A DNA stretch of 64,000 nucleotides, taken from assembly GCF_900114645.1 (NCBI RefSeq), contig NZ_FOTR01000016.1:1-64000 (forward strand), given 5' to 3'. This document shows, piece after piece, positions 21,917 through 62,178 of the stretch (positions within the stretch are counted from its first letter, which is position 1; the number at the start of each line of letters is the position of its first letter). The translations under genes were made by a program, and so were the position numbers. Origin of the DNA: Gracilibacillus orientalis. GTDB taxonomy: Bacteria; Bacillota; Bacilli; Bacillales; Amphibacillaceae. Below the pieces are notes generated by a model. The model searched no databases. It saw only the letters and a list, made by a program, of their open reading frames with translations, and was not told where the DNA came from.

Positions 21917-22048
21917 AAAGGACTGATAAAATTTCAAAGAAAAACCGGGAAGCCCACCCGCCCCTTTCGTTTATAAACCAGAATAATGTACGCTAACCAA
22001 GTTAGAAACGATGAAATGTTTTCATCTGCTACGGCAACCGCTTCGGCT

Positions 22049-22155
22049 GACCGTTTCGCTTTCCGGGGGCATGCTCTTCAGCTAACTTTGAAAAGAAAAA
22101 CGCTTTTCAAAGTGGATCTTCAGATCACGCTAATTCCCCAGGAGTCGAAACGGTC
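22049..22155 (-). repeat. Palindromic intergenic element, copy A
   Basis: A 107-nt element. Outer stem GACCGTTTCG (22049-22058) with CGAAACGGTC (22146-22155); central stem ACTTTGAAAAG (22085-22095) with CTTTTCAAAGT (22103-22113). Read on the reverse strand it has the conserved boxes GACTCCTG, CTGAAGATCCA, TTAGCTGA and CGGAAAGCGAA shared with copies B and D. It contains no gene. It faces copy B. Confidence 0.8.
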
Positions 22156-22302
22156 GGCCTACGCTATTGTTATGTTCTACAACTTATTATATAGAATCAT
22201 TTTTGCGTTTACTGCATCATGTAGACCTCTATTTTTTTCTATCGCTATAAAAAGCCAAAATATTTGCTGTCACCATAGGTGTAGAGCCTATCTTAAAGCG
22301 TA

Positions 22303-22423
22303 GGAAAAATGCGAAGACTCCAGCGGGATTAGCATGAGCTGAAGATCCATTTTTTTAAATAAAATTCATTTTATTTAAAAAAATTAGCTGAGGCCATGCC
22401 CGCGGGAAGCGAAGCATTTTTCC
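22303..22423 (+). repeat. Palindromic intergenic element, copy B
   Basis: A 121-nt element in the opposite orientation to A. Outer stem GGAAAAATGC (22303-22312) with GCATTTTTCC (22414-22423); central stem of 16 bp at 22350-22365 with 22368-22383. The conserved boxes (GACTCC, CTGAAGATCCA, TTAGCTGAGG, GGGAAGCGAA) match A and D, but both stems have wholly different sequences that still pair. Confidence 0.8.
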
Positions 22424-22503
22424 GGAGCTGTGCCCAGCACTCTATACATTTCAAAACACTTTTTATTTATGTCGCTAGGATTTTATACTTTCCTTGCTAA
22501 TAA

Positions 22504-22556
22504 GAAAAAAGTATACCTCTTTTTCGATGTATAATCGAAAGGAGGTATACTTTTTT
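22504..22556 (-). terminator. Terminator of the molybdenum-cofactor operon
   Basis: A long hairpin of about 22 bp with arms AAGTATACCTC and GAGGTATACTT extended by TTTTCGAT/ATCGAAA, followed on the reverse strand by TTTTTT; 17 bp past the DUF454 stop. Confidence 0.9.
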
Positions 22557-22572
22557 CCAAGTTCTTTCTCAA

Positions 22573-60901: not shown

Positions 60902-61534
60902 ATGTTGCAAAAATTACTAAGATCATTCGTTATATATATATTAGGTATTATCACGTTAACATTTGGTATTTCATTGACAATTCAATCACATTTAGGAGCA
61001 TCACCTTTTGATGCCTTGCTCGTAGGTTTATATCGATCATTTGGATTGTCAATTGGAAGCTGGGAAATCATTGTTGGCTTTACAATCGTCATGATTAATG
61101 CCATTGCAATCAAAGCAAAACCTGAATTTTTCGCCATGCTAACGTCATTAATTACTGGTCTTGGGATTGATTCGTGGTTATTTATCCAAGGCTCCTGGTT
61201 CACACCTGACAATTGGTTGGAACAATCGATTTTATTATTATTAGGAATCATTTTTAGCGGAATTGGTATTGCAATATATTTGGAATCCAGTTTTGCGCCA
61301 AACCCAATGGACAGCTCCATGGTTATTGTAACGGATAAAACAGGTTTATCCTTTGGTAAATCTCGTGCTATCATAAGTATTATATTAGTTGTCATTGCTC
61401 TTCTCTTTCATGGTGATGTGGGAATTGGGACATTACTTAACGCATTATTTACCGGGGTTATGATTCAAGCATTACGACCATATATAGTTTCATTAAAGCA
61501 TAAATATATTGTAAAAACGATGAAAGCAAGTTAA
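60902..61534 (+). CDS. YczE/YyaS-family membrane protein
   Basis: 210 residues, five to six membrane helices. The pattern GISLTIQSHLGASPFDALLV, GSWEIIVGFTIVMINAIAI and SSFAPNPMDSSMVIVTDKTG is that of the YczE/YyaS family (YitT-like). Function unknown; a transport role is assumed. Own transcription unit after the ger operon. Confidence 0.85.
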   Translation: MLQKLLRSFVIYILGIITLTFGISLTIQSHLGASPFDALLVGLYRSFGLSIGSWEIIVGFTIVMINAIAIKAKPEFFAMLTSLITGLGIDSWLFIQGSWFTPDNWLEQSILLLLGIIFSGIGIAIYLESSFAPNPMDSSMVIVTDKTGLSFGKSRAIISIILVVIALLFHGDVGIGTLLNALFTGVMIQALRPYIVSLKHKYIVKTMKAS

Positions 61535-61649
61535 TAAGAAAAACCGATCCGGTCCTTATCTTTAACTCAGATGCTGTGCGCTAACTCCATGTAGTAATGT
61601 TGACATGTTTATCACGATGCTAACCGTCTGTAAGACCTCCGCTCCGGCT

Positions 61650-61697
61650 GCCCACTCCCCTTTCCGTGGGGTTTTTCCCTCAGGAGTTGAAGTGGGC
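61650..61697 (-). repeat. Palindromic intergenic element, copy C (short form)
   Basis: 48 nt. Outer stem GCCCACT (61650-61656) with AGTGGGC (61691-61697), different in sequence from A, B and D but still paired. The central segment with CTGAAGATCCA and TTAGCTGAG is missing. Flanks (CCGCTCCGGCT and GGCGGCCTACGC) match copy A's. Confidence 0.65.
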
Positions 61698-61860
61698 GGC
61701 CTACGCTGACACATGCTCTACAACATGTGTCAGACCTAGAATCTTAGGTTATTATCCCTGTGGAAGTGCAAAAGATATGGCGTTAAAAATCACTAATAAT
61801 GATTATAAAACCAATATGCCTTTTCTAATATTCATTGTAGAAAAAAGTATAGCGGAGGCC

Positions 61861-61972
61861 GAACGTTTCGACTCCTGAGGGATTAGCATGATCTGAAGAT
61901 CCACTTTTGCAGGAGGGAACTCCTCCTGCAAAAGTTAGCTGAGGAGCATGCCCCTCGGAAAGCGAAATGGTC
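61861..61972 (+). repeat. Palindromic intergenic element, copy D
   Basis: 112 nt. Outer stem GAACGTTTCG (61861-61870) with CGAAATGGTC (61963-61972), two mismatches; central stem ACTTTTGCAGGAG (61903-61915) with CTCCTGCAAAAGT (61923-61935). The boxes ACTCCTGAGG, CTGAAGATCCA, TTAGCTGAGG and CGGAAAGCGAA match A and B. Faces copy C, as A faces B. The rest of 61535-62178 shows no gene. Confidence 0.8.
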
Positions 61973-62178
61973 AGCCGCAGCGGTTGGGTTGCACAAGCTA
62001 TCTTTCAAAATGACAAACAGGCGAAGTACACATCTTCCTCCATCTGACTATCTATCCTTGCTTTTTTAATGACACGTTTTGCATCAACCTTTTCCTATCT
62101 TACTTGCTTATAAATTGAGACTATGATCAGGGTGTTAGGGGCTGTTATCCCCCACTTAACTTTCTTGTCATATAAAGT

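Follow-up and report, generated by a model that had tools for sequence, protein, structure and literature searches.

A dispersed fold-back repeat with paired structured hairpins in Gracilibacillus orientalis and other Bacilli, probably a non-autonomous mobile element

An intergenic region of Gracilibacillus orientalis contains two hairpins, here called copies A and B, that share short boxes while the stems around these boxes differ, and it raises the question of what kind of element keeps a fold without keeping its sequence. The region lies in contig NZ_FOTR01000016.1, of which we have analysed positions 1 to 64,000 (the window, 64,000 nt). We find that both belong to a single dispersed repeat of ∼560 bp, of which they form the inverted arms, and consider the family to be probably a fold-back mobile element of a non-autonomous, MITE- or REPIN-like kind. 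The full unit would be an imperfect long palindrome (outer end, hairpin of 105–130 nt, spacer, inverted hairpin, other end), copied as one DNA unit, by an enzyme acting in trans, into intergenic sites that often adjoin intrinsic terminators. Each hairpin would hold one strand-specific shape, composed of an outer stem, a U.G pair, a tandem G.A or its replacement, and a free central stem; with stem sequence thus free, subfamilies with unrelated stems would coexist. The shape may be recognised on single-stranded DNA or RNA during the mobility or expression of the element, possibly by a protein acting in trans, and should it be what is recognised, the family would be a case of a mobile element identified through structure. 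Judging by titles and the beginnings of abstracts, we recognised no name or description of the family in the literature. Two candidates from an earlier note on this DNA, a transposable REP-like element and a structured RNA family, both fit, the former through the mobile unit and the latter through a hairpin that appears related to the small RNA tsr24, below the family cut-off.

Copies A and B and their fold

Copy A (22040–22165 as modelled, sense strand minus) and copy B (22297–22428, sense strand plus) score 134.9 and 123.7 bits with our covariance model R1, matches that are by construction, as both are among the 22 sequences used to build it. Against shuffled sequences their folds have z scores of −6.29 (A) and −6.91 (B). 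Direct reading of 22049–22423 confirmed the outer stems GACCGTTTCG/CGAAACGGTC and GGAAAAATGC/GCATTTTTCC, and found a central stem of 11 bp in copy A and of 17 bases per side, perfectly complementary, in copy B; the observation that outer and central stems differ between the copies and yet stay paired thus stands. The fixed shared boxes described earlier are also there. In copy B, on the plus strand, they are GACTCC (22316–22321), CTGAAGATCCA (22339–22349), TTAGCTGA (22384–22391), for which a tandem G.A helix with CTGAAG is possible, and GGGAAGCGAA (22404–22413), which differs by one base from the GGAAAGCGAA first given for it; most copies from the same genome have GGAAAG here. By exact count, CTGAAGATCCA occurs 64 times in the 4.61-Mb genome as compared to once for its reversed control, four of the 64 being, by eye, apparent chance matches in coding DNA. 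From these 64 matches 53 elements were aligned (51 distinct), with 11 loci left out as coding, truncated, or carrying an insert, and 22 representatives were taken as alignment A1.

The loci around the CTGAAGATCCA matches fall into subfamilies in which the stems are wholly different and the boxes are retained. In the 22 representatives, all from the G. orientalis genome, 94.7% of cells pair, and 21 of the 35 pairs have changed on both sides. Their covariation score is 0.390, as compared to a shuffled mean of 0.162 (sd 0.012), and is lost when partners are slid by one to three columns; none of 500 shuffles scored as high, so that covariation exceeds that of random palindromes and supports the earlier proposal that selection or copying acts on the fold as such.

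Read from the outside inward, the fold consists of a short base stem, a variable outer stem, an internal loop in which GACTCC faces GGAAAGCGAA, a CTGNGGG/CCCNCGG stem that includes the conserved U.G pair, a third, variable stem (recognised by eye, and outside the counted structure), a CTGAAG/CTGAAG motif, and finally the variable central stem. The 5′ and 3′ CTGAAG can form, in order, C-G, U-A, G.A, A.G, A-U, and G-C. The tandem G.A/A.G is possible in 176 of 251 readable copies, with the pair outside it mostly U-A or C-G; the motif was not found in 25 of 276 distinct elements, and in the rest the best-pairing candidate was taken. Two of the boxes that had been called single-stranded therefore probably pair with each other.

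The 80 named loci come from a scan listing at least 111 stretches and were chosen by a pattern that contains the boxes. We have therefore judged box conservation on 49 partner hairpins that do not match the pattern, themselves found with the covariance model. ACTCC is present in 43 of them as compared to 4.8 in shuffles, and GGAAAG in 41 as compared to 3.2, while the inner boxes are weaker (GAAGAY 27, GCTGA 22, CTGAAGA 8).

The outer stem has 76 G.U against 24 A.C among 146 distinct copies from the G. orientalis genome (G000) and the complete genome of a relative (G002), and for the named loci, with 130 distinct copies, the figures are 65 against 9. The conserved U.G pair was seen in 126 of 145 copies of the first set and in 110 of 129 of the second. 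The first set, alignment A2, comprises the best 150 of 212 rows (149 after dropping overlaps), and the second, alignment A3, keeps 134 of 143 rows after the same step. A force acting on double-stranded DNA alone should give G.U equal to A.C, so the G.U excess, counted on alignments fitted to the model structure and on related sequences, is good though imperfect evidence for folding of one strand, whether as RNA or as single-stranded DNA, and the fold is probably under strand-specific selection. With stem sequence changing freely and one shape kept, it is the shape that appears to matter, and the family amounts to a natural covariation experiment, with well over a hundred copies within single genomes, unrelated stems, and one shape. 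One hairpin subtype carries on its 3′ side a recurrent insert of ∼60 nt (L018, L020, L021, L024, and L058), perhaps an extra helix or a nested element.

The repeat unit and its spread

Copies A and B had been described as two elements; both are real, and what was missed is that they are arms of one unit. Unit 1 extends over 21937–22496 (right end ± a few bases), limits set where similarity stops in alignments with L052, L054, L014, and L048 and with the internally deleted copies L046 and L047. Its spacer, which separates the hairpins at their 5′ ends (22166–22296, 131 nt), corresponds to spacers of 128–129 nt in L014, L046, L052, and L054, and a host intrinsic terminator, inverted repeat I4, lies directly to its right (22504–22557). 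Unit 2 (61536 to ∼62175, right end approximate) was recognised by the left terminal motif and by model matches, and starts directly past the stop codon of a gene ending at 61534; it has a shortened left hairpin (61641–61707, minus strand, 59.3 bits with R1) and a right hairpin (61851–61981, plus strand, 125.7 bits) that is one of the 22 model sequences. The left terminal motif AAGAAAAACC (21937–21946 in unit 1, plus strand) starts both units and occurs twice in the window, where 0.30 occurrences are expected and 2 of 100 shuffles have two or more. A recurrent motif beginning GACTATGATCAG lies outside one subfamily of units (∼62115–62175 in the window; also L027, L031, and L037) and may be part of the unit or a neighbouring repeat.

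The ends differ between subfamilies. Two subfamilies have sharp inverted ends, of the AAACTGCGAA type and the AGACTGGGACA type, and the pattern AAACTGCGAAS, standing for the AAACTGCGAA ends, has 74 matches in G002 as compared to two for its reversed control; in the subfamily to which the window's units belong, inversion of the ends is weak (AAGAAA, by eye). At its left end, unit 1 has a weak terminator-like hairpin, a 4-bp stem followed by a T-run (21945–21961, minus strand, read and folded). The corresponding hairpin is stronger in other copies, its arms different yet paired, and a terminator scan flagged it in L100, L036, L023, L018, L031, and L096, though not in the window. One 60-bp copy (L153:944–1003) has lost both hairpins and retains little beyond the two terminal repeats.

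The model retrieves at least 138 hairpins in the G. orientalis genome and at least 140 in G002, both lower bounds because only 150 of 2532 and 150 of 2699 candidates, respectively, were scored. This search had been proposed earlier, with the absence of further copies as the outcome that would count against the family. The earlier impression that the boxes occur in intergenic DNA of other Bacillaceae holds as well: own genome included, the model matches 51 of 61 neighbourhood genomes and 85 of 398 genomes of the class Bacilli (28 of 145 genera), from scans with stricter filters that scored 56 and 8 candidates per genome, respectively. The named matches include Gracilibacillus, Oceanobacillus, Virgibacillus, Lentibacillus, Halobacillus, Planococcus, Sporosarcina, and others.

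Neighbouring hairpins face each other 5′ end to 5′ end in 47 of 47 cases within 3 kb in G000, in 47 of 48 within 600 bp in G002 (where 38 of the gaps are 84–89 nt), and in 43 of 44 within 350 bp among the named loci, which represent 12 genera; the exception among the latter is a pair in L286 with both hairpins on the minus strand, and orientations are mixed beyond that distance. In the genus, the spacers of close pairs are quantised. A partner was not detected for 44 of the 138 hairpins in G000, and 34 of the 80 named loci have a single model match; missing partners may be too diverged for the model. Single hairpins are most prominent in two distant genomes, G024 and G060. In G024, 28 of the 34 matches listed (of 49) are single and the rest form three minus–plus pairs, one with a gap of 1868 nt; a plus–minus neighbour at 107 nt was also seen. 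G060, a 4.0-Mb genome from another family of the order, has 130 model matches, of which 76 of the 78 listed are single. Among the matches listed, the paired arrangement is thus not evident in G060 and mostly not in G024, and the G060 hairpins, nearly all single, are an independent expansion.

Among 72,556 plasmid records only one matched with either of two queries, and among 50,697 phage records copy B had no match. The single plasmid record (L163, Radiobacillus kanasensis NZ_CP088021.1) carries mfd, metG, glmU, purR, and other housekeeping genes, and is apparently part of a chromosome that was submitted under the label of a plasmid. Several breaks in the G. orientalis assembly lie within ∼300 bp of a repeat copy (contigs C4, C5, C6, C11, C16, C18, C20, C24, C26, and C27).

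Movement and the sites that units occupy

Two sites in the genus could be compared between genomes. Downstream of a PgpA-like gene (family assigned by Pfam; 17 loci, 16 readable), G000 has unit 1, G001 carries an element of another kind, and in G016 a hairpin pair lies 458 nt downstream; remnants were recognised by eye in G015 and G009. In G002 (L130) the site is empty, and the terminator that lies right of unit 1 in G000 follows directly on the stop codon. At a response-regulator gene (12 loci), hairpin pairs of different subtypes occur in G000, G015, G012, and G013, and the other eight loci are without an adjacent model match, one of them (G009) having a remnant by eye. In G006, moreover, all seven close pairs among the 38 of 43 matches listed enclose an IS200-type gene, and five loci carry the same IS200 insertion. 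Alignment with a free-standing IS200 leaves ∼46 + 68 nt (∼114 nt) of original spacer in these units, so that the gene is best explained, from these alignments, as a captured insertion sequence that was amplified by its host element; decayed IS200-type transposase genes were seen inside the G006 spacers of L170, L179, L186, L191, and L193. The empty site, the repeated occupation of two sites, and the five shared IS200 insertions indicate that the unit moves as DNA, and moves whole, a reading that is well supported within the genus. When 19 end pairs were compared for target duplication, shared words were in slight excess but at no constant offset, and inspection of five G006 units by eye revealed no duplication.

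Of 172 unit sides, 53 have a terminator-like hairpin nearby, as compared to 100 of 2530 random windows, a lenient control since these windows are mostly coding. The terminator-like hairpins peak just outside the unit, 21 of the 53 being at 100–120 nt from the structured hairpin. Gene context was examined for 101 pair units; 38 of them overlap a reading frame from the mechanical calls, and 86 have gene calls close by on either side. Of these 86, only 6 lie in divergent intergenic regions, against 57 of 303 (p 0.008), so that such regions are avoided, and there is no preference for convergent genes (14 of 86, p 0.74).

No transposase tied to the family was found. The spacers of close pairs are too short to hold one (up to 420 nt in G000 and 302 nt in G002), and an autonomous hairpin–gene–hairpin copy was sought in the complete genome G002 and rejected, its only longer-gap pair (1186 nt) enclosing an IS110-type transposase fragment (PF02371, L089:1698–2210). 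The most viable alternative, which we take seriously while leaning against it, is that the units are MITEs of an IS1182/IS1272-type DDE transposase that inserts at stem-loops or terminators without target duplication. Such elements, IS1272 among them, are reported to use hairpins and terminators in this way (PMC4923244, PMC5678879), which would fit the terminator-like hairpins at unit flanks, with the same leniency of control, and the ends of the G006 subfamily, AGACTGGGACAGAA, resemble GAGGCTGGGACATAA beside an IS1182-type fragment in G016 (L229). Yet the Pfam family PF13751 was detected in four of 17 genomes of the genus and was not found in G000, G002, or G015; in G012 an insertion sequence with a 537-aa frame ends in AAGGGGCTGTCGCA and another with a 518-aa frame ends otherwise again; and neither the window's subfamily nor the AAACTGCGAA subfamily has ends resembling the IS1182 type. 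The present units share with IS1182/IS1272 the sites beside terminators or stem-loops and, in one subfamily, a CTGGGACA-type end, and differ in having no transposase gene and, in other subfamilies, different ends. No autonomous relative with the same ends was found, the IS1182-type fragment with similar adjoining sequence being the one case of its kind.

Known relatives and the role of the hairpin

No Rfam family matches in the window at its gathering threshold. Below threshold, the hairpin aligns with tsr24 (RF02577), a small RNA of Staphylococcus aureus, with a best score of 45.9 bits on L010 (E 2.6e-7) against a gathering score of 50. Four of ten sources matched at E 0.01, copy B scores 31.4 bits, copy A is unmatched at E up to 10, and 18 further loci gave no match. 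The order of boxes is the same (GAGACUCC, GGGA, GAAGA, GGCUGA, CCC, and GGAAAGCGAA), the helix stack is similar, and the best match aligns all boxes and helices; tsr24 differs in not being described in Rfam as an inverted pair or a mobile unit. Judged on these alignments, the hairpin is related to tsr24, though below the family cut-off, which would connect this orphan RNA of S. aureus with an extensive family of mobile repeats found across the Bacilli. Other sub-threshold Rfam matches were set aside as chance or as the host terminator at ∼22500–22565.

This relationship favours an alternative that we nevertheless judge unlikely, namely that the hairpins are small RNAs, or 3′-untranslated-region elements with a part in transcript protection or processing; because the pair points outward, a transcript entering from either side would be sure to carry a sense hairpin close to its 3′ end. 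The G.U excess on the sense strand, the terminator with differing but paired arms in one end type, and the avoidance of divergent regions also speak for it. Terminator placement weakens the idea of a 3′-untranslated-region cap: of 94 cases in which a gene reads towards a unit, 39 already have a terminator separating the two and 14 have one only past the unit, which points to landing beside terminators and speaks against the units serving generally in 3′ untranslated regions. Divergent sigma-A promoters in the spacer were likewise considered and rejected: in 82 spacers the mean best promoter score is 8.69, the same as in mononucleotide shuffles (8.69), though a score of 10 is reached in 21% of spacers as compared to 16% of shuffles, a small excess that leans the other way. 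Should the fold-back element be mobile as we propose, it carries a warning that ‘small RNAs’ reported from such regions may be parts of mobile elements.

REPINs, and REP sequences with their RAYT, are inverted hairpin pairs with conserved spacing, high in copy number, intergenic, and non-autonomous, with hairpins of about 20–40 nt. The family described here shares all of these properties of arrangement, and differs in its longer hairpins (105–130 nt), its conserved inner boxes, and the lack of a linked RAYT (Y1) gene flanked by hairpins, only the IS200 cargo of G006 having been found. We consider it distinctly improbable that the units are giant REPINs moved by an IS200/IS605- or RAYT-type HUH (Y1) transposase. 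Inverted pairs at fixed spacing and a strand-specific fold would suit such an enzyme, and Y1 genes do lie within all seven close pairs listed in G006, but the ∼114 nt of original spacer there speak for insertion of IS200 into a pre-existing spacer, and no other genome shows the arrangement, for which reasons Y1/IS200 was rejected as the autonomous partner. A flanking hairpin pair was found at none of 29 IS200-like loci of other genomes and at none of 25 Y1 loci fetched in the genus outside G006 (genes partly shared with the 29); L167/L204, L177, and L211 have single hairpins more than 1 kb from a Y1 gene. Searched twice for Y1, G002 gave no match either time, G015 none and then a 52-residue piece, and G000 a 35-position remnant and then none.

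The least probable alternative, that there is no selection and that template-switch correction of quasi-palindromes keeps the arms complementary, would yield well-paired and freely changing stems without function, but it is strand-symmetric, while G.U exceeds A.C, and should erase internal loops, while ACTCC and GGAAAG are among the best-kept parts.

On account of the longer hairpins, the lack of a linked RAYT, and the tsr24 score below the cut-off, we have filed the family as a non-autonomous fold-back element, and neither as a REPIN nor as tsr24. As in MITEs, the repeat is short, non-coding, and dispersed (at least 138 hairpins in G000 and at least 140 in G002) and has terminal inverted repeats. 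A wider generalisation, rather doubtful at present, would make the family a mobile class throughout the Bacilli, whose internal ends would be recognised by shape and not by sequence. These ends would be strand-specific hairpins with a tandem G.A core, related to tsr24 and with stems free to diverge, so that one factor acting in trans, a protein or an RNP, could move units of unrelated sequence, and the fold would act both as an RNA and as a signal for mobility.

Bacterial MITEs such as bcr1 of Bacillus cereus, RUP, and BOX are likewise short, non-coding, dispersed, and folded repeats with inverted ends; in the present family, in contrast, each arm bears its own covarying hairpin, and the ends vary by subfamily while the fold is kept. 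Repeated stem-loop families have also been reported from B. halodurans (Bhal-1/2) and S. aureus (Sta-1 to Sta-4), the majority being assigned type ‘I’ (Cozzuto et al. 2008, PMC2267715), and on the strength of their descriptions these may include relatives of the family reported here.
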